From a virus, in the IMG/VR virus record IMGVR_UViG_3300049595_001872, positions 1 through 38,166 of that record: DNA of 38,166 nt, one strand, 5' to 3'. The notes under the pieces were generated by a model. That model did no database searches, was not told the origin of the DNA, and saw only the letters and a list, made by a program, of their open reading frames with translations. Position 1 is the first letter of the stretch; each line of letters starts with the position of its first letter. A program made the position numbers and the translations under genes. Positions 10,369-37,564 of the stretch are shown here, piece by piece.

Positions 10369-10548
10369 AAGATTTTCGTTGACAGTGTTAAGGACTCCGT
10401 AGAAACTGTAATCGTCAGCGGACCCGCGAGGATTATCCACCCTGACACTCCGCCCACATTCGCGACCCGATACCGTGATTATCCGAATGGGAGATTCCGC
10501 CTGAAGGCTGGGAAGCCGATGGCTTGAAATCTTAACCCATTCAAAATC
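10369..10548 (+). other. 180-bp leader between terL and capsid
   Basis: This is the longest gap in the structural operon. It holds TTGACA at 10379-10384, which could be a -35 box, though no convincing -10 lies 17 nt away. It also holds the 11-mer repeat at 10387-10397 and an open frame in phase with terL ending at TGA 10525-10527. The last 20 bases before the capsid ATG are AT-rich with no SD. It is likely to carry a promoter for abundant capsid expression, but that is inference. Confidence 0.4.
10387..10397 (+). repeat. Dispersed 11-mer GTTAAGGACTC
   Basis: Exact copy in the terL-capsid leader. With its flanks it shares 17 bases, GTGTTAAGGACTCCGTA, with the copy at 31601. In the frame open after terL it reads Val-Lys-Asp-Ser. 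Confidence 0.85.
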
Positions 10549-11409
10549 ATGTCTGATATTTCTGACCATTTCACAACCGAGTTCTCGACGAATTTCATTC
10601 ATCGAGTTCAGCAAGGTACGGCTCGCCTCGACGCTTTTGTTGAGGACGAGATGTTTGACGGTGAGCGCAAGCGCTATGACCGTCTCGCTGCTCAAACCTC
10701 CCGCGAGAAAACGGAACGCATCGCGCCAACCAACCCGATTGAGGTCGGTTCGGATTCGCGCTGGGCCTTCCGCCGCACGTTCGACATCCCGAACATTCTC
10801 GACGAGGACGATGCGAAGAACCTGGGCCAGCTGGTCCTGCCAACCTCCGACTATGTGAAGTCTCACGCGATGGCCTACCATCGTGACTGTGACCGCATCG
10901 CTTGGGCTGCTGCCATTGACGATTGTATCACTGGCAAGCTTGGCACAACGGCGACGGCGCTGGGCAGCGATCAAAAGATTGTCCACGGTTCCACCGGCTT
11001 GACGCTGGCGAAGCTGCTTGAAGCCAACGAAATCCTTGAAGGCGCTGACCTTGAGGACGGCGCTCCTCGCGTCATGGTGGTTTCTCCCCAGCAACTCACG
11101 AACCTGCTGAACACCACGGAAATCAAGAACGCTGATTACAACACCGTCAAGGCGTTGGCAACCGGCCAGATTGATACCTTCATGGGCTTCAAGTTCATCA
11201 AGTCCAACTACCTCCGCAAAGTCTCCACCACCCGCACTTGCGTTGCCTGGGTGAAGGGCGCGATCAAACGGACCAAAGGCGCGATGACGAGCAAGATCAG
11301 CACACGGGATGACCTCTCGGGCGCGACTCAAATCCGCTCGGTCTGGCACCTTGGCGCAACCCGCGTCTATGACGAGGGCGTTGTGAGCATCGAATGTACC
11401 GAATCCTAA
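10549..11409 (+). CDS. Major capsid protein
   Basis: A 286-residue protein directly after the packaging genes and before a small decoration-like protein. The N-terminus MSDISDHFTTEFSTNFIHRVQQGTA, an extended strand region (FRRTFDIPNILDEDDAKNLGQLVLPTSDYVKSHAMAYHR), and the C-terminal GFKFIKSNYLRKV and VYDEGVVSIECTES segments match the phage capsid family found in short-tailed phages, with an HK97-like fold expected. Codon choice is rich in C and shifts from the neighbouring replication genes, as in many highly expressed phage genes. No protease accompanies it. The ATG at 10549 has an AT-rich leader without an SD. Confidence 0.8.
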   Translation: MSDISDHFTTEFSTNFIHRVQQGTARLDAFVEDEMFDGERKRYDRLAAQTSREKTERIAPTNPIEVGSDSRWAFRRTFDIPNILDEDDAKNLGQLVLPTSDYVKSHAMAYHRDCDRIAWAAAIDDCITGKLGTTATALGSDQKIVHGSTGLTLAKLLEANEILEGADLEDGAPRVMVVSPQQLTNLLNTTEIKNADYNTVKALATGQIDTFMGFKFIKSNYLRKVSTTRTCVAWVKGAIKRTKGAMTSKISTRDDLSGATQIRSVWHLGATRVYDEGVVSIECTES

Positions 11410-11439
11410 CCCAACCCATCACTGAAAGGAAACTGACTT

Positions 11440-11931
11440 ATGCCCACATTCGATACCGCGCACTACGCGCTTCAAGTCCCTACCCGCGCCAATACTTCTG
11501 TCGCGGCTCCCTCCAATGTTGCCAGTGGCGAGATTGAGTTTGCAACCATCCCTTACGTTCTGACGAGCGGCACGGATGAAGCGGCCAACGACATCATCAA
11601 CCTGTGCATCCTCCCCGCTGGCTGCATTCCAGTTCCGCAAATGTCCAGCATTACCTGTGACGCCGACCCCGGCACCGCCTTTACGGTGGACGTTGGGACC
11701 GCGGCTAACACGGATGGCTGGGGCGATGGTGTGGCGCTGACTGCTGCTGGCAAGGTTGAGTTCTGCGCTGCGGCTCACACGGCTCCCGCGTGGCTCGCTG
11801 CGACTCCGCTGGTGGCTGACACCGGCAGCGGCAATGCTGTGGTGTATGCCACGGTGATGACCTCAACCTCTCCGACTGCGGGCGTGACTCTTTACTTCAC
11901 GCTGGCTTACAAGCGGGGTCGGGGCTGCTAA
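11440..11931 (+). CDS. Head decoration or stabilisation protein (putative)
   Basis: A 163-residue protein, 30 nt after the capsid gene, with an SD (AAGGAAA at about 11426) before ATG 11440. It is rich in Ala, Thr, Gly and Val with alternating small and beta-branched residues, as expected of an all-beta virion protein. It has several hydrophobic strands near the C-terminus (GNAVVYATVMTSTSPTAGVTLYFTLAYK). A strong terminator follows, so capsid and this gene may be transcribed at high level as one unit. The role is inferred from composition and position. Confidence 0.6.
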   Translation: MPTFDTAHYALQVPTRANTSVAAPSNVASGEIEFATIPYVLTSGTDEAANDIINLCILPAGCIPVPQMSSITCDADPGTAFTVDVGTAANTDGWGDGVALTAAGKVEFCAAAHTAPAWLAATPLVADTGSGNAVVYATVMTSTSPTAGVTLYFTLAYKRGRGC

Positions 11932-11940
11932 TCCCTAACA

Positions 11941-11981
11941 GGTGACCTGTCCTGCTTCTGGTGGGGCAGGTCGCCTTTTTT
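11941..11981 (+). terminator. Rho-independent terminator after the capsid unit
   Basis: A 12-bp stem pairs GGTGACCTGTCC (11941-11952) with GGGCAGGTCGCC (11964-11975), with two G-U pairs and an 11-nt loop, followed directly by six T residues (11976-11981). It lies between the decoration gene stop and the ATG of the tail tubular gene. It probably separates highly expressed head genes from tail genes. Confidence 0.85.
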
Positions 11982-11986
11982 GTATC

Positions 11987-12799
11987 ATGGCACAATCCGT
12001 CCTTGAGATCTGCAATCTGGCACTCTCCCACCTGGGTGAGGCATCAGTTCTGAGTCTGACGGACGACACCACTGCATCCCGTGCCTGTTCCTCCAACTGG
12101 GAACCGACACGCGATGAAGTGCTGAGAAGCCACCGCTGGAACTTCGCCAGCAAGCGGGCCGCTCTCAGCCTGAACCTTGTCACCATCACCAGCGTTGCCG
12201 ATGCTTCTGGACTGGTGGCCGTCACTAAAGCCGGTCACGGACTGACGACAGGGGACCGTGTGGAGATCGACGGAAGCACGACCTCTGACGGGGTGTGGAC
12301 GATCACTGTCACCAGTTCGAGCGTGTTCAAGTTGGACGGCTCGGCTTACTCCGCATCAACCGTCGCTGGCACATACCGTCTTCTCCCTGCCTTTGGCTGG
12401 ACCTATCAATACACACTCCCCAGTGATTGCCTTCGGGTGCTTGAGGTCAACGACAGCGAGGACGGGGACGGAACAAACCCGTGGTTGATCGAGGGGCGCA
12501 AGCTGCTGACCAATGACGAGGAATGCCGGTTGGTCTATCTGGCCGCGCCGGATGATGTGGCAGACTTTGACCCGATCTTTGTTCAAGCACTGGTTCTCAA
12601 GCTGGCGGTCAAACTCTCCGAAGTCATTCGGGGTTCGACAAGCAAGACTGAGCAACTGCTGGCGCAATACGAGCGGGTGACGGCTCCCTTGGCTCGTCGG
12701 GTCGATGCAAACGAGGCGCGTCGGCGTAAGGGGTTACGGCCCATGAATAGCCTCGCCATTCAAGCACGATTAGGGCGCGGCTACCATGTCACAAATTAA
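11987..12799 (+). CDS. Tail tubular protein A (T7 gp11-like)
   Basis: The 270-residue product begins MAQSVLEICNLALSHLGEAS and has an early segment (SRACSSNWEPTRDEVLRSHRWNFASKRAAL) typical of T7-like tail tubular protein A, which forms the adaptor ring under the portal. An inserted beta-rich domain (about residues 70-130, with TKAGHGLTTGDRVEIDGST) resembles extra domains found in larger homologues. The upstream in-frame ATG at 11942 lies inside the terminator stem, so 11987 is preferred. The 3' end overlaps tail tubular B by 14 nt. Confidence 0.85.
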   Translation: MAQSVLEICNLALSHLGEASVLSLTDDTTASRACSSNWEPTRDEVLRSHRWNFASKRAALSLNLVTITSVADASGLVAVTKAGHGLTTGDRVEIDGSTTSDGVWTITVTSSSVFKLDGSAYSASTVAGTYRLLPAFGWTYQYTLPSDCLRVLEVNDSEDGDGTNPWLIEGRKLLTNDEECRLVYLAAPDDVADFDPIFVQALVLKLAVKLSEVIRGSTSKTEQLLAQYERVTAPLARRVDANEARRRKGLRPMNSLAIQARLGRGYHVTN

Positions 12800-15686
12800 G
12801 CTTCACCTTCAGTCATTCAACGCGGGCGAACTGTCCGAGTCGATGGGGCAACGCTTCGGCGTGGAGAAGGTGGCGACGGGTTGCCGGAAGCTTCGCAACT
12901 TCATGTTGGATGTTCACGGTCCAGCTAGCAAACGTCCAGGGATGGGGTTCATCGGGTCAAATGCTGATGCAGCGGTGAGGTCACACCTGATCCCGTTCAA
13001 CTTCTCGACCACCACCACCTTCATGTTGGAGGCAAACCCTGCGGGGCTGCGGGTGTGGAGCAATGGGGCGCTGGTGACACTGGATGCTCCCGTTGCTTGG
13101 CCTTACACGGACGCGGAGACGGAAGAGGTGCAAACCACCCAGATCAACGATGTTGTCTATTTGGCCCATGCCAATCACCCGCCTCGCAAACTCACACGGG
13201 TGACTGACACCAACTGGAAGCTGGAGGAGGTGCCTTGGTTGTATCCTCCGCTCCTTGATGAGTATTTTCGCACCGGTCTAGCAATCCCTCCAAGTGAGAT
13301 TCCATTGCTGCAAGTGAAGGGTGAAATTTGGCAGGAGGCTCAAGCCTACACGGGTGACACCTTCCAAGTGTCATGGAGCGGTGGGACTGGAACAAACACA
13401 GTAGTTCTTGAGAGGTGGACAGGTTCAGCGTGGACAACCGTCAACACTCGGACTGGATCTGCTGCCACCTACGTTTCGCCAGTGTTCACGTTGGTAACCA
13501 GTGGAGTGCATCGCATCAATGTCACCGCTCAAAGAAGCGGTGTGACGGGATCAGCTGTCCTTCGTCCACCGATTCCAGCCTTTCCTCTTCCCGCTCCATC
13601 GCCACACATCACCGTGGACCTTGGATTGACCCAGCCTGTGTCAAAGGCAAGCGTCAGTGTTCCAATCGGTGACTGGAACGTCAAGGTGGATGGGACCAAC
13701 TCAACGACTGTCCCTGCTGGCGTTAGCGGGAAGATTCAGCAGTTTATCAGCGGAAGTTGGTCCGATGTCTCTGGCGGGGCGTTGACTCTGACACCAGGGA
13801 AGTTCACCACCGTGAGTCCAGCGGCGGTTTCTGGCTCCGCAAAGCTGACTCGCATCCTCTGGGCTGGCAACGCTTGGCCTAATGCGACGGTGAGCATCAA
13901 CCGGCTGGAATATCCGGCAAGCAGTGATGTCACCTTGGAAGTGTCCGACACCACCGGGACAGGTAAGAACCTCACCTGTTCTGTGGCGAAGTTTGAGGAA
14001 GGCCATGTGGGGAGCTACTGGCAACTGGCTCACCGAAGAGACACGGCTTACGCGGAGGTAAAAGCAATTTCATCTTGGAGCAGTGATCGCTTGAGTGGTG
14101 AGGTTCGCATGGTCGGAAGCTGGGATTTGTTCTCGTATGGCACCTGGACATCAACGGTCCACCTTGAGCGGGAGCGGCCAGACGGAAGCTGGGAGGTGAT
14201 TCGGACTTGGGTTGGCGACAAGGATCGGAACATTATCGCCAACGGGACAGAGGATCAAGAGGCCAACTTGCGGATTCGGCTTGTCTCAGGCGGCACAAGC
14301 AGCGGCACCCCGCTTGCGCGATTCATTTTGGAGGCTGCGGATGCGCGAGTGTATGGCGTGGTGAAGATCAAGAGCATCACTAGTTCAACCGTCGCAGTCT
14401 GCGACATTGTTCAGACGGTTCACGCGACGACTCCAACAGCCCTCTGGACTGAGGGCGCGTTCTCTGCCTATCAGGGTTATCCTCGTTCGGTGGTGGCGCA
14501 CGGGGCGCGGGTCTGGTGGGGTGGCACCAAGAAACAACCTTCCCGGCTGTGGGGCAGCGTCATTAACGACATCGAGAACTTCAGGCGCTCCACCTTTGAC
14601 GATGGCGGGGTGAGCTTCACGGGTCACAGCGGCCAGTCTCACCCGATTCACTGGCTGGCTTCTCAGGGTAAGGATATGCTGATGGGAACAGCGGGTGACG
14701 AGTGGCTTGTCACTTCTGAGGGGCCAATCATCACGGCGGCTGACGCGGTATTCAAGCGCCAGTCCGCTTTTGGGAGCGCCTACCTTCCGGCCTTACTCGT
14801 TAATGAGTCGGTGGTGTGGATTCAGCGGGGCGGGAAGAAGGTGCGGCGGGTGTCTCCTCGGTCTGACTCGGACGCTTGGGCGGTGGCTGATTTGACTGTT
14901 CTGGCCTCCCACGTCACTGGCACTGGCATCCGGCAAGTGGCGTTCATGTCCAACCCAACGAGCATCCTCTGGGCGGTGACTGAGGAGGGCAAACTTATCG
15001 GCATGACCTACGAGACGGAACAGAACGTTTTTGGCTGGCACGTCCACGAGACAGACGGCATCGTTGAATCCGTTGCGATCATCTACGGATCGGGCGCTGA
15101 TGAAGTCTGGTTGGAGGTGGAGCGGAACGGGGCGCGGAACATCGAACGCCTGGACCCTGTGGCGATGGAGCGGGATATGACGGAGTGGGAAACCATGCTG
15201 TTCTGTGACTCGGCTATCCGTCTGACTGGACCCAACACAACCTTTACTGTGGCTCACTTGCAGGGTCGGACAGTGGTCGGGCTGGCGGATGGTGTGCCGT
15301 TTGAGGCGGTGGTGTCTGAGGCTGGGGTTCTCACTCTCACCGCGTCGGCAACGAATGTCATTGTTGGCCTACCCTACACGGCAACCCTCCAGCCAATGCG
15401 GATGGATGTCCCGATGCAGGACGGCACCAGCCAAGCGCGAACGCTGAAGGTGTCACGGGTCGGGGCGCGGGTGATTGATTCGAGGTCGGGACAGGTGGCT
15501 GACGGCCTGGACGGCGTATTTGAAACGCTCCCCTACCGGCACGGGTCGGGACTGTTCACGGGCATGGTGGAAACGGCCATCACCTCCCGCACGATGGAAG
15601 ATATGAATGTTTGCGTTAAGGACTCCAAACCTTTGCCTTTCACGCTGGCGGGTCTTGTGCTAAAAATGGACGTGTTTGGCGATTGA
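12786..15686 (+). CDS. Tail tubular protein B (T7 gp12-like nozzle)
   Basis: A 966-residue protein immediately after tail tubular A, as in T7. The N-terminus (MSQIKLHLQSFNAGELSESMGQRFGVEKVATGCRKLRNFML) with 'GPASKRPGM' matches the start of gp12-like nozzle proteins. A beta-rich insert with Thr/Ser/Gly repeats (about residues 180-520) makes it longer than T7 gp12 (794). The conserved core resumes near YPRSVVAHGARVWWGGTKKQ, SRLWGSVINDIENF and GDEWLVTSEG. The nozzle closes the tail and binds fibres. A copy of the dispersed 11-mer lies near the 3' end (15615), reading Val-Lys-Asp-Ser. Confidence 0.87.
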   Translation: MSQIKLHLQSFNAGELSESMGQRFGVEKVATGCRKLRNFMLDVHGPASKRPGMGFIGSNADAAVRSHLIPFNFSTTTTFMLEANPAGLRVWSNGALVTLDAPVAWPYTDAETEEVQTTQINDVVYLAHANHPPRKLTRVTDTNWKLEEVPWLYPPLLDEYFRTGLAIPPSEIPLLQVKGEIWQEAQAYTGDTFQVSWSGGTGTNTVVLERWTGSAWTTVNTRTGSAATYVSPVFTLVTSGVHRINVTAQRSGVTGSAVLRPPIPAFPLPAPSPHITVDLGLTQPVSKASVSVPIGDWNVKVDGTNSTTVPAGVSGKIQQFISGSWSDVSGGALTLTPGKFTTVSPAAVSGSAKLTRILWAGNAWPNATVSINRLEYPASSDVTLEVSDTTGTGKNLTCSVAKFEEGHVGSYWQLAHRRDTAYAEVKAISSWSSDRLSGEVRMVGSWDLFSYGTWTSTVHLERERPDGSWEVIRTWVGDKDRNIIANGTEDQEANLRIRLVSGGTSSGTPLARFILEAADARVYGVVKIKSITSSTVAVCDIVQTVHATTPTALWTEGAFSAYQGYPRSVVAHGARVWWGGTKKQPSRLWGSVINDIENFRRSTFDDGGVSFTGHSGQSHPIHWLASQGKDMLMGTAGDEWLVTSEGPIITAADAVFKRQSAFGSAYLPALLVNESVVWIQRGGKKVRRVSPRSDSDAWAVADLTVLASHVTGTGIRQVAFMSNPTSILWAVTEEGKLIGMTYETEQNVFGWHVHETDGIVESVAIIYGSGADEVWLEVERNGARNIERLDPVAMERDMTEWETMLFCDSAIRLTGPNTTFTVAHLQGRTVVGLADGVPFEAVVSEAGVLTLTASATNVIVGLPYTATLQPMRMDVPMQDGTSQARTLKVSRVGARVIDSRSGQVADGLDGVFETLPYRHGSGLFTGMVETAITSRTMEDMNVCVKDSKPLPFTLAGLVLKMDVFGD
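15615..15625 (+). repeat. Dispersed 11-mer GTTAAGGACTC
   Basis: Exact copy inside the 3' end of tail tubular B, in the frame Val-Lys-Asp-Ser, 74 nt before the next start codon. Confidence 0.85.
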
Positions 15687-15688
15687 TT

Positions 15689-16883: not shown

Positions 16884-16886
16884 CTT

Positions 16887-19060: not shown

Positions 19061-22000
19061 ATGCCCACACTCCAAGAAGCAAACATGATGGTGTCCGATT
19101 GGGATACCTGGGAAAAGTCGTTGGACCCTGCCAAGAGGCAACAACTCGACTCTGTTTTTCGCTTTGAGCCGGATCGGGCAGCGGCACAACAACGGTTTGC
19201 GGCGGTGGCTCATGTGAGCGCGGCCACGGGTGCGGACATTGAGGACGTGTCCCGGCGCTTTGAATCGTGGTATATGCCAGCGTTCGCGGCAGATGCCAAG
19301 GTGGGGCTTGGGAAGGTGGACGGTGTTAAGGACTCGAACGAGTTCTTTGGGTTGCTGAAGGGGCGGGCTGACACGCTCAAAATGCGGAACGAACTTTTCA
19401 CCGATGCGGCTGGGGCGGCTCTGGAGTCGGTGCTAATGGATGGCAATGCGCTTGACGATTTTGCAACGTGGCAGGCGGGGCAGGATCACGAGGACGCCTA
19501 TGGTGACAAGGCTTTGGAGGTTTGGAAGAAAGCGCGTGAAGAGGCGCAGGCAAAGCTGGGCGCGGATGGGCTGGCGATTGCCAAGCGTGGGGTGCGGGCA
19601 ATGCGGACTGAGATGGGCGTTACTCAAGAGGGTGACGCCTGGATGAACGAAGCGCGGCGGGATTTGATTCGGGTGAAGGCAGAGAATCCGGCGAAATACA
19701 ACCTCATCTTGGGGGCAATGACGCGGCTCGGGAAAGCGGCCCCGAAAGGTGACAAGGGAGTGGTGGAAGGGATGGGCGAACAAGCGGGGCGGGTGCTGGG
19801 CGATATGGCAACGGGAGTGGCTGACCTTGGAACGAACATGATGCGTGATGCGTCCGCTTCACTGGCAGAGGCAGGCATCACCAACGCGGAAAACCCTGAA
19901 GCTTTGGCGGCTCAGATTCGGGCTGGGCGTGATGTGGATATTGATTTGGAGGATCTAAAAAAAGGCGTCATTGACCCGATCAAGAGCGAGCGCGATGGCT
20001 GGACGGGTTGGATTGAGGATGCGGCCTATGGGCTTTCGTCGTCGGCCCCGATCATGGCGGCGGCACGGAACCCGCTCGGTCAACTGGCCTTGGCTGGGAT
20101 GTTTGCCGATGAGAGCTACAACGACTTCAGGCGGGCAGGGTGGACCGGTGCGGGAGCGGCTGGGGCTGCGGTGGCGTCGGGCGTGTTTCAAACGGGCGTG
20201 GAATACGTTTCGGAATTGGCGATTAAGATTCCAGGCGTGGCGGGTGTCATGGCTAAGTTTGGCGTCAAGCCGGGGTCGTCGTGGGCAACTCAGTTTTTCA
20301 TGCGTTCGGGACTTCGGGCGGGGACGGAGTTGGGCGAGGAAGCGATTCAAGAGGCGACATCACCATTCATTCAGGAACTAAGCGCGGCGATCTTTGACTC
20401 GGTGCCGGACAGACCAGAAGGGCAGAAGCTCAAGGATGTGATGGGGCATTTCATGGAAGCAGATCAGTTTATGCCGCTGGTCTTGTCCATCCTACCGCTG
20501 GGCATGATGGGCGCTGGAATGTCCACGTCTCAAGATATGGCCGTGATTAACGCGGTGACGAGCAACAATAAGCTTCTGCGGGCGGTGTTTTCGGAGGAGG
20601 ATACAGCGGCGATCATCGCGGAGACTGACCCCGCCAAACGGCAGGCAATGATTCAGGAGAAGTGGGTGGCGACTCCCATCCCTGAAATCGTGGAGCGGGC
20701 GCGGGCGGTGATGGAGGAGGAGACAAACACACTGACCGAAGCGCGGGAGGCGTTGGCGACAATGGAAGCGGCCCCGTTCTTCCTGATGCCAATCGTGAAG
20801 CGGGATGAGAACGGCTGGCTAGTGAGGTATCGCGGCCAAGGATCGGAAGCGGAGTCCGTGGTAAGAGTTGCCAACAAAGAGGCGGCGGTGAGCCTCGCCT
20901 ATGACGGCTACGAGGAGAACGTCAGAACGGAGGCGCGGGCGATGGTGGACACCTTGGAGGCGTTTGCTGGCGCAACTGACATCTTTGAAGTCGATCTTGC
21001 GAACGAGCGGCTACTCAAGGACACGGGCATTTCAGAACAGCAGATGACAGAGGCGGCGATTGCGGAGGGCATCATCAACGGCATGACCCGCGAAGAGGCT
21101 CAAAACATCACCTGGGCTGTGCATGGTCAAAACCGACTGGAGCAAGTCGAGGGCGTTCGGCGCGTGGTGTCAAATCTGGCGCGAGGGGCGAACGTCTTGG
21201 ATGCGGTGGAAGAGCCGATTGAAGGCAAGTTCATGGCGGCGATCAAACAGGGGCGGCTGACGCGGGAACAGGCGGTGTCATGGGTCAAGGTGGCGGCGGG
21301 CGTGATGAACGCGCCTGAACTCGTCACAGCGGCGGAGTCGGGCGAGCGCGGGTTGATTGAGGCGGTGTCAGATGTGGTGCTTGCTGATGTGTTCGGAAAG
21401 CGCAAGGACGGCAGCAAAGCGGCACAAGGCGCAATCTCGGCAGGTATTCGGGCGAAGATCAGGCGCGGCGGAGTCGGCAAAGCTGAGACGCAACTCGGGC
21501 AGATTCTCGCCTCGTTTCGGCATTTCTTCGGGCAAGTGTTCAAGCGGGCGCGGCAACTGGTCAAGGCGCGGAAGGATGGGCGCATTGGTGAGGACTTCGA
21601 CACCTTCCTCGATACTCTCATGGAGACGGACGCCAGCGTGATTTACGATCGGGAAGCCGCACAAGAGGCGGTGACGATGGCGGGGGAGGTTGACAATGCG
21701 CCGTTTTCGCTTAGTCCTGCGGGCATGGCATCCGAATCCGGGGCCGCCCAAAACACAGCACCTTCGACGGGCGGTCTCACAGAGTCGGAAGTCATTAGTT
21801 ATGAGCGTTCAGATAAGCACGGCTCCACCTATTTGGATTTAAAGGATTCAGCAGGCAGGTGGTTCAAAGTGCGAATCAGTGACCACGAACAGCGCACACA
21901 AAACCCTGACAACAAGCGGCCCAACCAATTAACTCAAGTTCTCAAACGCCGGTTTTCCATTACCCAAGAATCGCCGCAAGACATCAATATTTTAGTGGAT

Positions 22001-25000
22001 GCGCCATTGTCTGAGGAAGCAACCAAGCGATTAGCACAGGCAGCAATTGAAACATTGACTCCAGAAGCCCGAGACGCTGCCATAGAGGACGGTGACGAAC
22101 TAGCATTTGATGCGCGTGAAAAGTATCATGCCGACCAACTTCAATGGGCAAAAGTGCAAACGGAACGCTATGGAGGTAAACCACCAACAAGTGAAGTTCG
22201 AATCATTCTTGAAAAGACTCCAACAAAACTGGCGGCAGCGTCGAACTTGCTACAAAAAAGCCAGTCAAGGGCAGAAAGCAGATCGGACATGCCCGGCAGA
22301 GGACCGACCAACTTGGTGACGTCCAAGACTGGCTCCCAAAGCGTTGAACAGCCACCAACCAAAGTCAACCCTGAATCCACCCGCGCCGAAGATGGCGCGT
22401 TCTCCCTCGCCCCCCGCTCCCTCGCCTCCGTAGCCGATACCGTCCTAGCCTCGCGGATGAAAAAGCCCGAGTTTCGAGAGGCGTTCTACAACGTGGCGCG
22501 GCAGAAGATGGAGAAGCTTCGGAGTGATGGCGAATGGAAGGTGAGCAAGTTCGGCGTGGCCTCACGGCGCACCGGCACGGATACAATGGCGGGGCGCACG
22601 GTGGACAAGACGCAAGAGCAGTGGAACCGGGAAATGAAAGCCCGTGAAGGATTCGAGTATGACCGTCTCTTGCGGGAGAACTTCGGGGCCGATACGACCA
22701 AAAAGCAAGAGGCTTTGCCCGTGGTGGACAGGCAGGCGGCAAGGTCGGAAGCGCGGACGTTTGCGGAACGATGGTTGGAAGGTGAGAAAAAGAAACAGCC
22801 AACCCCCAAGGAAAGGCAAATGGCCGCACTCCGCACGCTTGACGCGATCCTCTCGGCTTTCCCTCCCGAGATTCGTGGGCGTGTGGGTGGGTTCGTGAAA
22901 CTTGCCAGCCTCGGCACCGACAAAGCGCGGGAGGCTGAGATTGTGAAGCGGCTGGACTTGCTGGATTCGGTAGTTGAGAAGGAGGCGAAGAAGTTCTATC
23001 GCGGGAAGATCGAGGACACATTCGAGAAGGCCAAGCCCAAGAAGGGCAAGGCGGGTGAAAAGCCAAAGGGCAAGCTTGGGGCGCAGACTCAAGCCCTCGT
23101 TGATCTGGCTCGCACATTCTCGGAACTGGATGAAGCGGGCGTAGCGGCGGAACGGGCGGCGATTACGGACCGGATGACCAAAGAGACAGACCCCGCGAAG
23201 GTGGCTGACCTGTTCGAGCGCGAGCAGCTTCTTGACCTGTTCGGGGACTTGGATGAGCGGACAAGCGCGGAACTGGAAGCGGCGGCGGCTTGGCTCTCTG
23301 AAACCTACAACACGGGGCGCAATCGCTGGCGTGCTGTGATTGAGCAGCGGGAGGAGCAGACGCGGGCACAGCGCCAGAAAGCGCGGGAAGAGATCGGTTT
23401 GCAAGGGCTGGACGCGGAACAACAAAAGGCGCTTGAAGAGGCGAGGACGATCACCAAACGAGCGGCAGGCGTGGCGCTTTCGTGGTTGAGCTTCGAGCAA
23501 GTGATGACCTCCATCCTCGGGCGCGGTTCCAAGTTGGCGCGTGATGTGGTCCGGCAGGCGCGGGCGGCGACGACTTCCAAGACTGACGCACTTCGGGCAA
23601 AGCGGGCGGCGTTCAAGGCTACCATGTCCGGCATTTTCGGCACGACAAAGCAACGGGAATGGCAAGACAAGCTTTGGCAGCTTTCGCAGATTGGCGGCGT
23701 CCAGGTGGTGAAGATGGAAGGGGCGCGGACTGAAACGCGCACCGTGGCAGTCGAAGCGGTGCAACGGATCATTGAGGGCAAGGCAAGCGCGAAGGCGTTT
23801 GGGCTGGATGCGTTGAAGCTGGACAAACTGGCGGATGCGTGGGCGGAGAATGACAGCCTGCCAGCGAATCGGAGGAAAGAGAACCTTTCCTTTGAAGTCC
23901 CGATAGCGGGCACGGCAACACCGACGCGGCTTTCTCAGCTTCAGGCGGTGAACATCACAATGCTTGCCCGTCAACCGGGATACACCGAGAACATGGCGGG
24001 CCACGGGTGGACGGCGGAAGTTCTGGAGGAGATTGAGAACCAACTCACGCCGGAAGCAAAGGCAATCCGTGATTGGTTGGCGGGTGAGTATCGCAACGGA
24101 TACGACTCATTAAATGAGGTCTATGCGCGGATGTATGGCGTGAACCTGCCAAGGCTTACCAACTACTCCCCCGGCACGTTTGAGGCAATGGACATGATGG
24201 GGCAGGACATCGACCCGTACGGCCAAGGGCTTTTGTCTGAGGGCGGCTTTCGGGCGGGAATGCTCAAGACTCGCGGCAATCACAAAGCGGCCCCGCGGCT
24301 TGAGGATGCGCTTTCGGTCTATTGGTCCCATGTGAACGCAACGGAACATTTCAAGGCGTTTGGTGAGTTTGCGCGGGATCTTCGCGGCGTGATGAACAAC
24401 GCGGAAGTTCGCAAGTCCATCAAAGCCAAGGGCGGGAAGGACTTGCTGGAAGCGGGGCAAAACTGGATAGGAGCGTTTGAGCGGAACGGGGTTGAGAATC
24501 GTTCGACCTCCTCGGCATTTGACGAGTTCATTCGGCGGCGGCAGGCGTCACAAGCCTACCTTGCTCTTGCCTACAACATGGGAACGCTGATGAAGCAGAG
24601 CACAGCGGCTCTTGGGTCACTGCTCAACATGGGGCCGGGAGCGGCTGCACGGCAGTTCTCGAAGCTGGTCACGGGCGGGCTTGACCTGAAAGCGGCTTAC
24701 AACTCGGATGTGATTCAGCGGCGGCTTGATGCCGGTTACTCCCCCGAAGTCCGGCAAGCAATGGCGGCGATGATGGCAGAACGGCCAAGCTGGGGCACGG
24801 GCCTTGTGCAAAAGGGCATGGAGATTATCGGCGTGGTCGATGCGGTATTCACGACAGCGAGCTATGCGATGGCTTACGACTACCATCTGCAATCCGCGAA
24901 GGATGCCGGGATGAATGACGCTCTAGCCCAAACGGAAGCGGAACGGGAGGCAGAGGCGACAGTTGCAAGGACGGCGCAACCCTCGGAGATGATGGACCGC

Positions 25001-25732: not shown

Positions 25733-25749
25733 GGGAGACTCTTAACACA

Positions 25750-26121
25750 ATGACCCCCGTAGAACAAGCCTCATCCTTCTACGGCCCGCACTTCTGCGAG
25801 GTGGTGGCGGATCACCTCTTGACGGGCTACGTCTTTTCAACGCCTGACTGTTTTCTCCTCGGCAAGCGGAAAGAAGATGCGTGGTTTGTGACCTACCTTG
25901 CGGGCGATCTGGCGGCGGCGGTGCCGTTCATTCCGTTCCCGTTGCCCTACCTGATTTTTCAGCGTGACAATGGGGAGCTTCGGCGTTATTCTGCGGAGTC
26001 CTTAACCCGCCGCATTTATGGGAAGCAAACCAAAAGGGCCAAGCGCCCAACAGAAGAAGGCCGAAAAGCTGCAACTGGAGTTGTTGCAGAAGCAGCTAGC
26101 GGCTTCCCAAGAGCCGATTGA
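25750..26121 (+). CDS. Hypothetical phage protein, 123 aa
   Basis: The ATG at 25750 is chosen over an in-frame ATG at 25714, which overlaps the antisense gene. The product contains FCEVVADHLLTGYVFSTPDCFLLGKRKEDAWFVTYLAGDLAAAVPFIPFPLPYLIFQRDNG as a conserved-looking centre, of the kind seen after the gp16-like gene in other short-tailed phages. There is no catalytic motif. Its last 35 codons overlap the next gene by 104 nt in another frame, and those codons (KQTKRAKRPTEEGRK...) are low-complexity, so the functional part probably ends near 26015. Confidence 0.6.
   Translation: MTPVEQASSFYGPHFCEVVADHLLTGYVFSTPDCFLLGKRKEDAWFVTYLAGDLAAAVPFIPFPLPYLIFQRDNGELRRYSAESLTRRIYGKQTKRAKRPTEEGRKAATGVVAEAASGFPRAD
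25996..26006 (-). repeat. Dispersed 11-mer GTTAAGGACTC, reverse copy
   Basis: The plus strand reads GAGTCCTTAAC, the exact complement of the 11-mer. It is the only exact copy in reverse orientation. It lies in a plus-strand gene (frame Glu-Ser-Leu), 12 nt before the next start at 26018. Confidence 0.85.
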
Positions 26122-26332
26122 GATGCCGACTTTTTCGGTTCCGCCACCGGCTCCCCCTCCTCCGCCTCCTCCCTCTGCGAGTTCGGCGGATGCTTTGGAG
26201 GCGTCAACGGACCAGCGGCGAAAGGCTTCTCAGCGAACCAACGCAGGCCGGAACACGATCTTTGCGGGTGAGACGGGCGGGCTTGGCGGGATGAAACAAC
26301 AAATCGGGCAACCCTCGACCCTCCTTGGATGA
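26018..26332 (+). CDS. Small Pro-rich virion-associated protein, 104 aa
   Basis: Begins MGSKPKGPSAQQKKAEKLQ, then a coiled-coil-like QLELLQKQLAASQEP segment, a run of prolines (VPPPAPPPPPPPSAS) and an Ala/Arg/Asn-rich tail ending QIGQPSTLLG. Proteins with this 'G-KPK-P ... Pro-run ... TLLG' layout are common beside gp16-like genes in short-tailed phages and are thought to be structural. Overlaps of 104 nt (upstream) and 4 nt (downstream) show tight packing. Confidence 0.65.
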   Translation: MGSKPKGPSAQQKKAEKLQLELLQKQLAASQEPIEMPTFSVPPPAPPPPPPPSASSADALEASTDQRRKASQRTNAGRNTIFAGETGGLGGMKQQIGQPSTLLG

Positions 26333-28873: not shown

Positions 28874-28881
28874 CTACTGCC

Positions 28882-29232: not shown

Positions 29233-29387
29233 CCCGCGCCCTCCAGCTCCTCCTCGTCCTCCTCGCCGCCACGGTGTGCGCCGGATGCACCGCCCTCGCG
29301 ATGGCGCAGCAGCGGCTGGAGATCCGCCGCATCGAGCAGGATTGGGGCGTCCACAAACCCCGGCAAAGTATTAAGGACTCACAATGA
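29229..29387 (+). CDS. Small lipoprotein, 52 aa (possible spanin-like)
   Basis: Begins MTRALQLLLVLLAATVCAGC: a basic start, a hydrophobic stretch and a cysteine at residue 20 in a lipobox-like CAGC setting. The remainder is hydrophilic (QQRLEIRRIEQDW) and ends SIKDSQ. Such short lipoproteins can be outer-membrane spanin subunits (Rz1-like) or other phage surface proteins. It lies before the portal rather than in the lysis region, so a spanin role is only a guess. The start overlaps the previous stop and the end overlaps the portal start by 4 nt. Confidence 0.6.
   Translation: MTRALQLLLVLLAATVCAGCTALAMAQQRLEIRRIEQDWGVHKPRQSIKDSQ
29371..29380 (+). repeat. Variant of the dispersed 11-mer before the portal start
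   Basis: ATTAAGGACTC (29370-29380) differs from the consensus only in its first base. Reading Ile-Lys-Asp-Ser at the end of the lipoprotein gene, its TAAGGA can serve as the SD for the portal ATG at 29384. Confidence 0.8.
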
Positions 29388-31371: not shown

Positions 31372-31381
31372 CTTTTTTTCC

Positions 31382-31807
31382 ATGCAATACGAACACCCAC
31401 ACATCACCGTGTCCAGCCCAGCGCCGGGACATTACGTCATCGCTGGCCTTCGCGCCGGTTCCACCTCAACTGAAGAAGGGAGGTTGGTGCATCCGATGTC
31501 GGTTCACATTTCACCCGAAGTTCCCAACGATCTTCTTTATGCGATTATCAATGACCGGGGCGCGGTGCCTGGGCCTGTGACGGTGGAAGATGTGGGTGGT
31601 GTTAAGGACTCCGTAATCGAAACAAACGAAACGGGGGCGCTGGGCCTGATTCTTGAAGCCCTCAAGGACAAGCCGATGAGGATTCGGGATTTGGCTGACA
31701 AGGTGGGTGTCGTGACGGTGGACGACATCAAGGCTCTGGCGGGCAACGGTTTCGAGATTGGAAACGCTGGCTGGGTGAAACTCTCGGTTGAAGGAGGTGA
31801 AGCATGA
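31382..31807 (+). CDS. Hypothetical protein, 141 aa
   Basis: The N-terminal part is beta-rich (HITVSSPAPGHYVIAGLRAGST, MSVHISPEVPNDLLYAIIND). A linker carries the 11-mer repeat as GGVKDS (31601-31611). The C-terminal part (ALGLILEALKDKPMRIRDLADKVGVVTVDDIKALAGNGFEIGNAGWVKL) looks like a small winged-helix domain. It overlaps the scaffold start by 4 nt. The two-part layout, with the repeat exactly in the linker, is notable. The function is unknown. Confidence 0.65.
   Translation: MQYEHPHITVSSPAPGHYVIAGLRAGSTSTEEGRLVHPMSVHISPEVPNDLLYAIINDRGAVPGPVTVEDVGGVKDSVIETNETGALGLILEALKDKPMRIRDLADKVGVVTVDDIKALAGNGFEIGNAGWVKLSVEGGEA
31601..31611 (+). repeat. Dispersed 11-mer GTTAAGGACTC
   Basis: Exact copy in a linker of a hypothetical gene, frame Val-Lys-Asp-Ser. 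With flanks it shares 17 bases with the copy at 10387. Confidence 0.85.
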
Positions 31808-32766
31808 ACTGGCTCCTTTGGAATCGCGGGCGGCTGATGGAAGGTGAAGGCGGCGAAGGTGCTTCTGGTGGTGGTGACGGTGGCGCGGCTGGTGGCGCTA
31901 CGCTCTTGGGTGGTGATGGTGGCGCTGCTCCTGCGGCTGGCGAAAGCGCGGCTCCTGCTGCGTGGACTTGGGCCAAGGAAGATGGCTCTTTCAGTGAAGG
32001 CTGGGTGGACAAACTACCGGAGAACCTGCGCGGTCATGCGGCCTTGAAGGTGATGCCCTCGGTGATCGACCTCGCCAAGTCCTACGTTGAGACGAAAAGC
32101 ATGGTGGGCAAAAAGTTGGAGGCTCCCGGCGAAGGCGCAACGCCTGAACAACTCGCATCTTGGCGAAAGGTGGTGGGCGCTCCTGAAACTCCAGAGGGTT
32201 ACTTGGGTGAGTCGAAGTCACTGCGGCCTGAAGCCATCCCTGAGACACTTTGGGACGGCAACAGTGAGAAGGCTTTTCTGGCGTTGGCTCACAAGCACAA
32301 CCTACCACCGGGGGCGGTCAAAGAGATCCTTGGCTTCTATGGCGAGTCTCTGACCAAAGGGGTTCAGATGAGCGCGGAAGCGGAAGCGGCTCACCTCACC
32401 GCGGAAACGGGCAAACTGCGCGAAGCGTGGGGGACAGAGTTTGACTCCCAGCTTGGCCTTGCTTCACGGGTGGCGAAAACGGCGGGCCTTGATCCGGCAA
32501 CCAACCCCATCTTTGCGGATGCGGAGGTGGTGAAGGCGTTCGCCAAGCTGGGCAAGATGTTTTCTGAAACCTCCCTTGTGGCTGGTGATACCTCATCCTC
32601 GGCAAGTGGTGGGGTCACTCAACGCATCACAGAGATTCAAGACCCGAAATCAACGGCGGTTGTGGCGCGGGAATACCGTGGCGAGTTCGGTCCTGAACGG
32701 CAAGTGCAAGCAGCGGAGGCGCTGCGCTCACTGCTCAAAGCTCAAGCGGAGGTCAAAGGACGATGA
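31804..32766 (+). CDS. Capsid scaffold / assembly protein (putative)
   Basis: A 320-residue protein. A Gly/Ala-rich start (residues 15-55, GEGASGGGDGGAAGGA) precedes the segment WAKEDGSFSEGWVDKLPENLRGHAALKVMPSVIDLAKSYVETKSMVGKK, a pattern common to T7-type scaffolds and phage capsid assembly proteins. WRKVVGAPETPEGYLG and a helical acidic body follow, ending in a charged basic tail (LRSLLKAQAEVKGR). Scaffolds guide capsid assembly from inside and leave later. It lies after the portal, but far from the capsid gene. Confidence 0.75.
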   Translation: MNWLLWNRGRLMEGEGGEGASGGGDGGAAGGATLLGGDGGAAPAAGESAAPAAWTWAKEDGSFSEGWVDKLPENLRGHAALKVMPSVIDLAKSYVETKSMVGKKLEAPGEGATPEQLASWRKVVGAPETPEGYLGESKSLRPEAIPETLWDGNSEKAFLALAHKHNLPPGAVKEILGFYGESLTKGVQMSAEAEAAHLTAETGKLREAWGTEFDSQLGLASRVAKTAGLDPATNPIFADAEVVKAFAKLGKMFSETSLVAGDTSSSASGGVTQRITEIQDPKSTAVVAREYRGEFGPERQVQAAEALRSLLKAQAEVKGR

Positions 32767-32930: not shown

Positions 32931-32948
32931 CCATAAAAACCAACCCAT

Positions 32949-34679: not shown

Positions 34680-34995
34680 CTTTGCCGCCAGTGTCCCGCT
34701 TCCGCGAGGCGCGGGGAGGTTTCGTTGTTGTTCCTTCTGTGCCACTGGCGGCACCTTCTTTGCCAAGGGCGCGGGCTTCCCTGCCTGAAATGCCGTAGCG
34801 TTCATAGAACTCTTGAACGTACTGGAGGTTCTTCTTCGCGTTCTTCTTCTGCCACTCGGCTTTTTTGGCCTGCTTCTTCTCTTTGTAGGCTTTGCCCTTG
34901 GCTCCTGTGGTCCTGCGCTTCCAGCGTTCGCGCTCCTTGGCCCGCTTCGCTTCGAGTTTGGCCTCTTCCTCTTTCTGGGCCTTCGTCTTTCTCAT
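34594..34995 (-). CDS. Lysine-rich protein downstream of integrase, 133 aa
   Basis: The ATG at 34995 overlaps the integrase stop by 4 nt (ATGA on the minus strand), a coupling sign. The first half is one highly charged helix (MRKTKAQKEEEAKLEAKRAK, ending with KKAEWQKKNAKKN). The second half is basic and low-complexity. The region FYERYGISGREARALG could be a small folded element. Its 3' 86 nt overlap the endolysin gene in the opposite strand. It might be a nucleic-acid-binding partner of the integrase. No family was recognised. Confidence 0.55.
   Translation of the reverse strand: MRKTKAQKEEEAKLEAKRAKERERWKRRTTGAKGKAYKEKKQAKKAEWQKKNAKKNLQYVQEFYERYGISGREARALGKEGAASGTEGTTTKPPRASRKRDTGGKVTESIGNASNRIPKKRQPKANPLGRNTP
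34684..34752. repeat. 10-bp inverted repeat where convergent genes meet
   Basis: GCCGCCAGTG (34684-34693) and CACTGGCGGC (34743-34752) are perfect complements with a 49-nt spacer; an outer T-A pair extends it. It lies just after the endolysin stop. It could help stop the two converging transcripts, but neither side has a T-tract, so it is not called a terminator. A chance match is possible. Confidence 0.3.
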
Positions 34996-36101
34996 GGCGG
35001 GGTGAGGTAGTGGTTGATGGTGGTGGCGGTGGTCGTATGCCCAAGGGCTGCGCTTGCCTCACGAACGCCAGCGAGACGGGCCGCAACAGCATCCTGAGTG
35101 AGTCGGGCCACCTCGTCGGCGTAAAGCCCTCTGAGGCGATGCAGCGGCTTCTTGGCGGTGGGGCAGAATGGCCGGACGAGGCGGGGCAAGTCCCGTTCAA
35201 ACCACTCTGACCGCTTCGCGGTGGTCGGCTGGACGATGGGGGAACCTTCGGGCAAAGCGCGGATGGCTTCGGTCAATTCGGGGCGGAGGATAAGGGCGCG
35301 GTAGGGCTTGCCCGTTTTGGTCAAGAATCCCTCCTCTGGTCGGTCCCTCAGTTCGATGGAGTCACCCGCCAACCAACCGGGGCGGGCGGCTGAAATCTCG
35401 GCAGACCGCAACCCAGCGAATCGAGCAAGGCCCGCGGCGAACCATTCGGGCGAACCCGCGGGTAGTGACTCCCACCAACGCAACAAGGCATCATCATCTG
35501 ACGGCGCGGGCGGAAGGTGCATGACAGGCAACCACTGAATGACAATCGCATCGCCGGGAATGGTGATGTCGTGCTCTGCGTAGGCGGGGCGTAGGCGCGG
35601 GATGAAGATCGAGGCGGCAGAACGAACAGCGGCGTTGATCGCGGCATTGCCTGGGCGACGGGTGGCAAGGTCAAGAACGCCCCCCAGCTTTGCGGCCATG
35701 AAGTCCCGCCATAGCTTCGGGTTGAGATCCACAAGCCGGACCTGCGACAACTCCCGCCCCCATGCAAGCCGGACGATGGAGCGGAGACGCTGCACGTTAT
35801 CCGTAGCCGCTCGCTCCCCGCAACGCTTGGGCATGTCGAGGTAGATGCGGGCGACATCCTCCAAAGTCTCGCCACCCTTGCGCGGGATGAGTTTAGAGCG
35901 GCCTTCCAAGTGGTCGCGGGCGATGCGCTTCGCTGCGTTGAGGTCGGAAGTTCCCAGCCCGAAATCAATCGCGTAGTGACGGCTGCGGCTGCGGAGCCGC
36001 CAAGTTCCTGATGCTTCCTTCACCAGTGGAATCTTTCGCCCCGCAAAAAGGACGAACTCTTTTCGGGCAATCGGGGGCGTTTTTCGGGCAGCGGTTCCCA
36101 T
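34992..36101 (-). CDS. int: Tyrosine integrase
   Basis: A 369-residue site-specific recombinase. Catalytic residues are visible in the right order: R232 in FAGLRSAEISA, a Lys in the FLTKTGKPYR hairpin (262 or 265), HRLR with H321 and R324, and LGHTTTATTINHY with H355 and the nucleophile Y365. The N-terminal 75 residues are basic, with IDFGLGTSDLNAAKRIARDHL like arm-binding or core-binding domains. It joins phage attP to bacterial attB through the tRNA 3' half 60 bases upstream of its start (36161-36216). SD-like GAGG precedes the ATG on the minus strand. It shows that the phage is temperate. Confidence 0.92.
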   Translation of the reverse strand: MGTAARKTPPIARKEFVLFAGRKIPLVKEASGTWRLRSRSRHYAIDFGLGTSDLNAAKRIARDHLEGRSKLIPRKGGETLEDVARIYLDMPKRCGERAATDNVQRLRSIVRLAWGRELSQVRLVDLNPKLWRDFMAAKLGGVLDLATRRPGNAAINAAVRSAASIFIPRLRPAYAEHDITIPGDAIVIQWLPVMHLPPAPSDDDALLRWWESLPAGSPEWFAAGLARFAGLRSAEISAARPGWLAGDSIELRDRPEEGFLTKTGKPYRALILRPELTEAIRALPEGSPIVQPTTAKRSEWFERDLPRLVRPFCPTAKKPLHRLRGLYADEVARLTQDAVAARLAGVREASAALGHTTTATTINHYLTPP

Positions 36102-36160
36102 GCCTCAACTACTCCCTCACTTTGCTCCCATTTGCAACTCGCTTTGTTTTCCTTTTGTTT

Positions 36161-36216
36161 TGGTGCCGATGACGAGACTCGAACTCGTAACTCCATTGCT
36201 GGAGGGCAGATTTTAA
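36161..36216 (-). other. attP: attP: 3' half of a tRNA-Leu(UAA) gene
   Basis: The minus strand reads TTAAAATCTGCC from the anticodon loop, a variable arm CTCCA-GCAA-TGGAG, a T-arm ACGAG-TTCGAGT-CTCGT, and the acceptor CATCGGC-A-CCA at 36161-36163. There is no 5' half. The long variable arm and the TTAAAA anticodon-loop remnant point to tRNA-Leu(UAA). A tRNA 3' half next to an integrase is the usual attP core: recombination restores the host tRNA. The predicted intact tRNA starts GCCGATG. Confidence 0.85.
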
Positions 36217-36237
36217 GGGAGGCGGGAGGGCTTGATT

Positions 36238-36429: not shown

Positions 36430-36521
36430 TCTTCCCTTATAACACAAGGGATTGAAAACAAAATTAGCAAAATGATGTTTTTTTGTTGCGATTGTAAGTA
36501 ACCCACGTTAAACCTTTCCCC
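36430..36521. promoter_or_regulatory. AT-rich divergent control region
   Basis: These 92 bases separate the minus-strand membrane/integrase side from the plus-strand regulator genes. They are clearly AT-rich in a GC-rich genome (for example ATTGAAAACAAAATTAGC, then a T7 run). They contain TGTAAGTAACC at 36493-36503. Promoters in both directions are expected here, but I do not see a strong sigma-70 consensus pair. Confidence 0.5.
36493..36503 (+). promoter_or_regulatory. Putative operator TGTAAGTAACC, copy 1
   Basis: This 11-mer occurs here, 18 nt before the first RHH gene, and again at 36838-36848 before the excisionase-like gene. Two copies in the immunity region suggest binding by one of the RHH proteins or a shared promoter element. 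Confidence 0.45.
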
Positions 36522-36803
36522 ATGCCAAATGCCCACGCCGCCGACAAGGTAGTCCTCTCCGTGAGGATTCCGGTCCTTGTTCGCGCAAGGCTTGAGAAGA
36601 TGGCAAAACAAAAGGGCTGGGACTTATCCCGGCTTGTCACCTCGATCTTATCAGACTCCACCCATGAAATCTCGCTCACTCCAGCCGAATATCAAGAAAT
36701 CGCCGAAGCCGTCGCAAGGAAGCACATCAGTGCTGTCAATCCGAATCCCTCTGGACGTAGCAAAAAGGTTGGCAAAAGTGGCAAAGGAAGAGCGGCGGAG
36801 TAA
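36522..36803 (+). CDS. Ribbon-helix-helix DNA-binding regulator 1, 93 aa
   Basis: First plus-strand gene of the regulatory region. Residues 9-45 (KVVLSVRIPVLVRARLEKMAKQKGWDLSRLVTSIL) fit the ribbon-helix-helix fold: a beta strand with alternating residues for the DNA groove, helix A, a Gly turn and helix B. The tail (SAVNPNPSGRSKKVGKSGKGRAAE) is basic and Gly/Lys-rich. Such proteins act as dimeric repressors or activators. Its last 140 nt also encode the start of the second RHH protein in another frame. It is a candidate lysogeny regulator. Confidence 0.72.
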   Translation: MPNAHAADKVVLSVRIPVLVRARLEKMAKQKGWDLSRLVTSILSDSTHEISLTPAEYQEIAEAVARKHISAVNPNPSGRSKKVGKSGKGRAAE

Positions 36804-36846
36804 GGCCCAACAAGCTCTCTTTTTTTTGGACGCCGCGTGTAAGTAA
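36664..36846 (+). CDS. Ribbon-helix-helix regulator 2, overlapping regulator 1, 60 aa
   Basis: The ATG at 36664 starts a frame different from regulator 1 and overlaps it by 140 nt. The product (MKSRSLQPNIKKSPKPSQGS, then TSVLSIRIPLDVAKRLAKVAKEERRSKAQQALFFLDAACK) has a clear RHH core: strand SVLSIRIP, helix LDVAKRLAKVAKEE, helix SKAQQALFFLDAA. The RHH core lies partly beyond the end of regulator 1 (36804-36846). It could be made by its own start or through a frameshift that joins two RHH units. Confidence 0.6.
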   Translation: MKSRSLQPNIKKSPKPSQGSTSVLSIRIPLDVAKRLAKVAKEERRSKAQQALFFLDAACK

Positions 36847-36848
36847 CC
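36838..36848 (+). promoter_or_regulatory. Putative operator TGTAAGTAACC, copy 2
   Basis: Identical to 36493-36503. It includes the stop codon of regulator 2 and lies 35 nt before the ATG at 36884. Confidence 0.45.
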
Positions 36849-36883
36849 TATACGCCCCGAAACCCTAAGCCCTGAACAATTTT

Positions 36884-37144
36884 ATGGATAAAGCATTAAG
36901 CGAAGAGTTAAAGGAAATCTACGTCCCGCTGCACCTCGTCTGCAAGCTGGTGAACCGCACGGCCCAAACCCTTCGCAACGATCAGCGGGCGCGGCTGGTG
37001 ATTATTTCCAAACACACGGGCGTTCGCTCTCCTTCGGTGCGGGCTGACAGACTCAACACCTACATCCGCAAGAAGCACTTCGGGCGGGTCCAGCCGGTGA
37101 CGGTGGAGAGTTTGGAATCTTTGCTGGGAGGTGTGAAGCCATGA
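36884..37144 (+). CDS. Excisionase-like or MerR-type DNA-binding protein, 86 aa
   Basis: Residues 10-60 (YVPLHLVCKLVNRTAQTLRNDQRARLVIISKHTGVRSPSVRADRLNTYIRKKH) look like a winged HTH of the Xis/MerR kind: helix, 'R-T-xx-TLRN' recognition helix and a wing. The location in the regulatory operon after the RHH genes fits an excisionase or early activator. An ATGA overlap joins it to the next gene. The call is tentative. Confidence 0.5.
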   Translation: MDKALSEELKEIYVPLHLVCKLVNRTAQTLRNDQRARLVIISKHTGVRSPSVRADRLNTYIRKKHFGRVQPVTVESLESLLGGVKP

Positions 37145-37362
37145 GCATTCTCGAACTGTGTCAGAAGATGGGGGATTTGGCGGCGGAGAATCCACGCGGG
37201 ATGGATGCGGAGGTGGTGATTTGGCTGCGCTCCCGCAAGGAGATTCCGCTTCTGTCCATCTTGGAGTTGACTCATGTGGAGCCGGGGTTTCGGCAGAGTT
37301 GCGGCGGGCCGGTGGTGTGTCTGTGCGCGACATTGGGTGAAGAGGAGGTGGGCCATGATTGA
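37141..37362 (+). CDS. Hypothetical protein, 73 aa
   Basis: Starts in an ATGA overlap with the excisionase-like gene. The sequence MSILELCQKMGDLAAENPRGMDAEVVIWLRSRKEIPLLSILELTHVE looks like a small alpha/beta fold; the end has VVCLCATLGEEE. Three cysteines near the C-terminus could be structural. The family is not recognised. Confidence 0.62.
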   Translation: MSILELCQKMGDLAAENPRGMDAEVVIWLRSRKEIPLLSILELTHVEPGFRQSCGGPVVCLCATLGEEEVGHD

Positions 37363-37564
37363 GGCGCTTGATTTGCTGTGGCAGTTCGCTTGCCGTTCGT
37401 GGCAGCTTTGGGGCGCTCTCGCGTTCGTGATGGCTCCATTCGGGTTGGCGGTGGTGGCGGTGTGGGACTTTGCCGATTGGCACAAGAGAAAAGATTTCGG
37501 GTCCGGTGTTAAGGACTCAAAAGGACAGCCGGAGAGACGGCATTCAAACAAACCAAAAGCATAA
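37355..37564 (+). CDS. Small membrane protein, 69 aa
   Basis: The ATG at 37355 overlaps the previous stop by 8 nt and follows an SD (AGGAGG at about 37342). One hydrophobic helix (LWGALAFVMAPFGLAVVAVW) precedes a basic tail DFADWHKRKDFGSG, then VKDS from the 11-mer repeat (37508-37518), then GQPERRHSNKPKA encoded by the leader repeat. The C-terminal 20 residues therefore come from DNA that appears to be regulatory. The function is unknown. Confidence 0.6.
   Translation: MIEALDLLWQFACRSWQLWGALAFVMAPFGLAVVAVWDFADWHKRKDFGSGVKDSKGQPERRHSNKPKA
37508..37518 (+). repeat. Dispersed 11-mer GTTAAGGACTC
   Basis: Exact copy at the 3' end of the small membrane protein gene, frame Val-Lys-Asp-Ser, 5 nt before the 18-bp hairpin leader repeat and 69 nt before the ssDNA-binding gene. 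Confidence 0.85.
37524..37541 (+). promoter_or_regulatory. 18-bp leader repeat with small hairpin, copy upstream of the ssDNA-binding gene
   Basis: Identical to 318-335. The core AGCCG-GAGAGA-CGGC can form a short stem. The start codon at 37577 lies 35 nt after its end, and the bases between are A-rich. Confidence 0.45.

Follow-up and report, generated by a model that had tools for sequence, protein, structure and literature searches.

Late promoters of the T7 type are directional elements made of a single block, and they stand before the genes for the portal, scaffold, capsid and internal virion proteins, some of them inside the upstream gene.

Control words dispersed over a whole genome are known from mycobacteriophages. 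The repressor of phage L5 has as its sites asymmetric 13-mers that are aligned with transcription, and reversal of a site abolishes repression (PMC9283540). The sequence of these stoperators differs between related phages (PMC6550527). Phages of cluster K carry start-associated sequences, which are asymmetric, 13 bp long and typically located 3–7 nt before a start codon; several of the genomes have just one copy reversed (PMC3203893). Their role is still termed ill-defined (PMC11373665). As far as shown, the literature reports of dispersed directional control words come from mycobacteriophages.

Here we describe words of a like kind in the window, the whole stretch of 38,166 nt that was analysed (IMG/VR record IMGVR_UViG_3300049595_001872), and in its relatives. 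The portal, terminase, capsid and tail genes of the window are kin to those of HTVC010P-type Pelagibacter phages. The window is a podovirus of this type with an integrase, and it infects bacteria. Contig L008, which is 97% identical to the window, spans from the window end to the window start, showing that the record is circularly permuted or circular. At the DNA level, window bases 1–25000 match no phage in the annotated collection. One relative, L009, displays 77% DNA identity to the window. L173 is more distant, with 76% identity in TerL and 75% in the capsid protein, and among the genes sampled it has only virion, terminase and integrase genes in common with the window. The terminase, capsid and portal proteins of G007 are 62%, 72% and 61% identical to those of the window. 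The integrase gene is evidence that the window phage can be temperate:

34992..36101, minus strand: integrase gene, matching phrog_1 integrase (E 1e-10).

Adjoining the integrase gene, nt 36161–36216 of the minus strand resemble the 3′ end of a tRNA-Leu(TAA) gene, and this stretch is a probable attP core. Used as a route to the host, it had no match in 388 genomes from the phylum of an Akkermansiaceae assembly.

The word GTTAAGGACTC occurs in six exact copies in the window, five on the plus strand (10387, 15615, 19325, 31601 and 37508) and one on the minus strand (25996–26006). A copy at 29370, before the portal gene, differs by one mismatch, and the copies at 10387 and 31601 are identical over 17 bases, GTGTTAAGGACTCCGTA. 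All of these copies and matches had been listed in a preliminary description of this DNA and were found again at the same positions. A fuller form of 13 letters, GTGTTAAGGACTC, is present in four of the window copies. The sites are as follows:

10385..10397, plus strand: site 1, GTGTTAAGGACTC, 17 nt past the terminase stop codon and 151 nt upstream of the major capsid gene.
15613..15625, plus strand: site 2, GCGTTAAGGACTC, in the last 24 codons of the tail protein gene 12786–15686.
19323..19335, plus strand: site 3, GTGTTAAGGACTC, at codon 89 of the giant virion gene 19061–25576.
25733..25748, minus strand: degenerate copy GTGTTAAGAGTCTC, inexact, of uncertain membership.
25996..26008, minus strand: site 4, GGGTTAAGGACTC, the sole inverted exact copy, 10–22 nt before gene 26018–26332.
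29368..29380, plus strand: site 5, GTATTAAGGACTC, 3 nt before the portal ATG (29384).
31599..31611, plus strand: site 6, GTGTTAAGGACTC, in the linker of the small gene 31382–31807, which directly precedes the scaffold gene 31804–32766.
37506..37518, plus strand: site 7, GTGTTAAGGACTC, 59 nt before gene 37577.

The degenerate copy lies 2 bases before the ATG of a minus-strand ORF of 51 residues (25577–25732). This ORF follows the giant gene and has no family match.

The preliminary description estimated 0.02 copies of the word by chance, which is of the right order for composition alone; a third-order Markov model expects 0.005. It had also set shuffling beforehand as a check that might refute the element. 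In 200 shuffles with codons swapped among synonymous sites, so that the proteins were unchanged, GTTAAGGACTC averaged about 0.25 copies with a maximum of 2, and no 11-mer of any kind rose above 4 copies. The copy number was thus not reproduced, and these shuffles rule out a chance origin of the repeats. In 200 second-order Markov sequences GTTAAGGACTC was absent, and one sequence reached six copies of another word. The window itself holds six copies of another 11-mer, CACCGGCACCG, a low-complexity word with a far higher expectation, whose copies are partly clustered. The 13-letter word, with about seven copies in the window, is a real, conserved and mostly one-directional element.

Conservation in relatives, the other check proposed with the first finding, was observed: close relatives keep all covered sites, the inverted one included. 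Sites 2 and 3 are kept in L087 and L088, where the downstream flank of site 3 has diverged (45%). Site 4 is kept in G001 and G002. Site 7 is present in L141 too, where the sequence upstream of it has been replaced (47% identical). The place of site 5 holds an exact GTGTTAAGGACTC in L007 and GTTAAGGACTC in L009. Both sites covered by L009 are kept; at site 6 the word is exact in a linker that is shifted and diverged, with flanks 61% and 30% identical. At site 1 a stretch of 19 bases, TTGACAGTGTTAAGGACTC, is unchanged in L173, where the flanks are 42% and 19% identical.

L173 harbors six exact GTGTTAAGGACTC 13-mers, all on one strand and mostly in small intergenic gaps. Two of them lie between a stop codon and the following ATG. 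A third, 6 nt ahead of an ATG, shares bases with a stop codon; the capsid leader has one copy on either side, and the sixth is past the conserved domain of recT. Four (L173:1312, 1567, 7708 and 9968) are 6–20 nt before an ATG. Viral contigs scanned for 14-mers containing the word gave multiple copies in relatives only, not in unrelated phages. The exact word was not found in six genomes holding related prophages, and G007 has neither an exact copy nor a substitute word.

A second word was found by scanning portal relatives for over-represented dispersed words. The second clade (clade 2, that of the window being clade 1) comprises about 75 contigs with GACTGATACC, and its portal protein is about 45% identical in amino acid sequence. 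From 35 divergent contexts the consensus of its word is AGTTTYGACTGATACC. The search demanded the inner 12 bases, whose conservation is therefore built in, but left the outer AGT and the last C free. Outside the word there is little conservation except for A/C-richness downstream, and the information drops at once after it to about 0.5 bit or less. Complete clade 2 genomes carry 8–9 exact copies each, and exactly one copy is inverted in each of eight records.

The sites of the clade 2 genome G013 match places in the window, being inside the giant virion gene (G013:6308) and before the portal, scaffold and capsid genes. The inverted copy, the only one in clade 2, precedes a small gene upstream of the portal gene, as in the window. 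This gene is the probable orthologue of window gene 26018, judged by synteny and short common motifs, BLASTP alone being weak. Both clades have a conserved leader of the capsid gene (window 10385–10530; L251 6815–6945) with a site at its start, and L173 and clade 2 have a second site near the capsid gene. An integrase is encoded by the window and by 6/6 complete clade 2 genomes tested. Scans for dispersed words found nothing comparable in HTVC010P, Baldr, ZP6, YeP5, DC33, Vibrio and Manatee Spring phages or in prophage loci.

Two RNA features were considered in clade 2 and dropped. A hairpin, AGT-TTYG-ACT, can be drawn inside the word but is missing from some sites. By eye, the conserved stretch that follows the inverted site reflects plus-strand coding sequence and not an antisense RNA. 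The only match in an Rfam search was a tRNA of clade 2.

The orthologous positions, together with the different word at equivalent positions in the sister clade, speak against a tiny mobile sequence, which the preliminary description had entertained. Among the functions listed there, regulation stands as possible, while recombination and packaging gain no support, since the placement of the sites goes with gene starts and their orientation with transcription. The difference of the word by group at many equivalent places suggests that each group has its own putative partner protein for late-gene control. Two words at equivalent places in two HTVC010P-type clades also suggest either repeated origins of the strategy or a greater age than has been assumed.

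Elements of like kind are known in the L5 stoperators and the cluster K start-associated sequences, yet none with the sequence of the present word was found described. The words resemble cluster A stoperators in being many asymmetric 13-mers spread genome-wide, often in short intergenic gaps, in phages that encode an integrase. As in stoperators, the orientation follows transcription (5/6 exact copies on the plus strand in the window, 6/6 on one strand in L173, a single exception per clade 2 record), and the sequence differs between related phages. However, there are 7–9 copies here against 20–30 stoperators, and the phage group and the sequence are unrelated. The clade 2 word is 16 bp with a partial dyad, a symmetry that stoperators lack. 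Stoperators are bound by the immunity repressor of the phage itself, which halts elongating transcription in one orientation, whereas here there are candidates only.

With the cluster K sequences the words share an asymmetric 13-bp form, about ten copies mostly in one orientation, many of them a few bases before an ATG, and a single reversed copy in several genomes. In contrast to them, the present sites are mainly in the virion region, while start-associated sequences are mainly outside structural genes. Virtually all start-associated sequences lie 3–7 nt before a start; here only some do so, and others are in genes or 59–151 nt away. The cluster K sequence is GGGATAGGAGCCC, unlike the words GTGTTAAGGACTC and AGTTTYGACTGATACC; it holds a Shine-Dalgarno core, which AGTTTYGACTGATACC does not. 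The T7 late promoters are matched in the directional, single-block placement before portal, scaffold, capsid and internal virion genes, in part within the gene upstream, but not in a conserved initiation region beside the block or a recognisable RNA polymerase gene. We file the words as neither stoperators nor start-associated sequences, but as a new variant of such elements.

Our tentative reading, held at somewhat less than even confidence, is that the words are lineage-specific directional operators bound by a putative phage regulator, stoperator-like in action and often placed like the cluster K sequences. We infer a DNA-binding regulator, most likely phage-encoded, that would bind about 7–9 copies, mainly across the late (virion) half. 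From the asymmetry of the site and its alignment with transcription, we infer that the bound protein would probably stop or gate RNA polymerase ahead of the portal, scaffold, capsid and large virion genes. Such gating, the mode of action of the stoperators of mycobacteriophage L5, may silence these genes in the prophage or delay them until infection is well advanced. Every lineage would have a word of its own and, presumably, a regulator of matching specificity; co-evolution with a partner whose specificity changes predicts just such a difference of words at equivalent places.

The non-chance number of copies, conservation against diverged flanks and the six one-strand 13-mers of L173 count for the operator, as do the integrases in the window and clade 2 and the lack of a -10/-35 element at a fixed place. 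Counted against it are the closeness of most clade 2 copies to an ATG, the weak dyad of the clade 2 word, the missing symmetric form in clade 1, the mismatch of ribbon-helix-helix proteins between the window and L173 (see below), and G007 and YeP5, in which an integrase is present and such a word is not.

The symmetry of some sites bears on the level at which they act. In clade 2 the site in recT is often a full palindrome, GGTATCAATTGATACC or GGTATCAAATGATACC, and L173 also carries its own word in recT. Two GGTGTCWGACACC palindromes are located at the clade 2 genes for ribbon-helix-helix proteins, where a DNA-binding protein that regulates itself would be expected to have its sites. The recT and GGTGTCWGACACC palindromes suggest that a dimeric protein binds the DNA. 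The clade 2 word itself resembles an imperfect recT palindrome (AGTTTY-GACT-GATACC compared with GGTATC-N4-GATACC), with agreement at 4/6 arm positions, which alone is weak evidence. The clade 1 word has no clear dyad, and a search of the window and L173 for a symmetric form of it gave none. On balance we take the palindromes, the strictly inverted copy and those copies that are remote from starts as favoring DNA.

Two genes beside the integrase encode candidate regulators:

36522..36803, plus strand: candidate regulator, ribbon-helix-helix-like, adjoining the integrase gene, with a weak match to the Arc-like repressor phrog_582 (E 0.004).
36884..37144, plus strand: candidate regulator, a small protein at the position of the HTH/excisionase genes of L173 and clade 2.

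Gene order around the first is alike in L173 and clade 2, and the second has no family match of its own. Integrase-side ribbon-helix-helix and HTH proteins are present in L173 and clade 2, and in the window by position and weak similarity. No repressor homologue was found in the window, and both proteins are candidates only. Window gene 31382, the ribbon-helix-helix and HTH genes of clade 2 and an XRE gene of L173 are further candidates. The ribbon-helix-helix proteins of the window and L173 differ in the DNA-contact strand although the word is common to both; therefore the word could also be read by a host factor, or by a protein encoded beyond the sampled part of L173. In the same region TGTAAGTAACC occurs at window 36495–36506 and 36838–36850, upstream of both integrase-side small genes (36522 and 36884), and is possibly a second operator.

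It is rather unlikely, though worth serious weighing, that the words are late promoters or their core and that transcription starts just after the word. The polymerase would then be either an unrecognised one of the phage or that of the host aided by a phage factor. The placement ahead of portal, scaffold, capsid and internal virion genes does resemble that of T7 late promoters. The site that opens the capsid leader in the two clades, the further one that L173 and clade 2 have by the capsid gene, and the A/C-rich, leader-like sequence after the clade 2 word fit this as well. The clade 2 capsid leader folds better than its shuffles (z −3.1), while those of the window and L173 do not, and the degenerate copy precedes a minus-strand ORF with which it is oriented. 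However, some copies are 1–3 nt from an ATG, and their mRNAs would be leaderless. The clade 2 word has neither a -10/-35 element at a fixed distance nor conserved initiation bases. A search of ten records for T7-type RNA polymerase (PF00940) found nothing, a weak result as the control genomes were silent too, and the giant virion protein has no match in Pfam, PHROGs or PDB. With no -10/-35 element at a fixed distance and no T7-type polymerase found, promoters become less likely.

We consider it improbable that the words work at the RNA level, serving translation or mRNA processing as start-associated elements, similar to the role proposed in cluster K. An ATG is found within 10 nt in 100 of 214 distinct clade 2 contexts (47%) but near only 37 of 214 random positions (17%). 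This nearness fits a role in translation or elsewhere at the RNA level; it also fits a mere lack of room elsewhere. The four L173 copies before an ATG and the mostly sense orientation agree with such a role. It does not account for copies 150–180 nt before the capsid gene, copies inside genes far from starts (19325, 31601 and G013:6308), the one strictly conserved inverted copy or the recT palindrome of clade 2, and the clade 2 word has no Shine-Dalgarno sequence.

That a host factor, instead of a phage protein, reads the element has a low probability. The window and L173 share the word while their sampled common genes are only virion, terminase and integrase genes, as a host factor would allow. 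Yet multiple copies in the 14-mer scans were confined to relatives, and the genomes with related prophages hold no exact copy.

There is next to no chance that coincidence or a common peptide, V-K-D-S, accounts for the repeats: the four exact plus-strand copies inside genes do share one codon frame that encodes it, and a stop codon in one of the other two frames alone favors that frame, but every coding copy uses identical codons (one further VKDS in the window uses others), the inverted copy is conserved, and the conserved non-coding copies (window 10387; L173:1312, 1567, 9822 and 9968) rule out the protein motif. The element is one of the nucleic-acid level, as the preliminary description had proposed.

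It is possible, though doubtful, that HTVC010P-type podoviruses use lineage-specific, genome-wide directional words at equivalent late-gene positions, in which word and partner change while the positions stay, as a late-gene switch that needs neither a recognisable phage RNA polymerase nor a known stoperator repressor. The words offer a route to the regulator and to the prediction of immunity groups among uncultured phages from sequence alone. They also raise the question of late-gene timing in HTVC010P-like phages that have no recognisable RNA polymerase.

Other short words were noticed in the same collection. AAATCGGGTA has six copies in L168, a contig of 5.5 kb whose terminase end matches the window, and is perhaps an origin. 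AAAGGGAAACAA has four copies on one strand of L206 (Pelagibacter phage Lederberg, 11701–13188), in a leftward block of small genes, and may be one more short word of the directional kind. TATCCACAA, part of a DnaA-box-like sequence, has five copies in L256 (Limnohabitans phage DC33, PQ492659.1). The taxonomy of PQ492659.1 says Inoviridae; the genome is of tailed-phage size and encodes a head-tail connector homologue.
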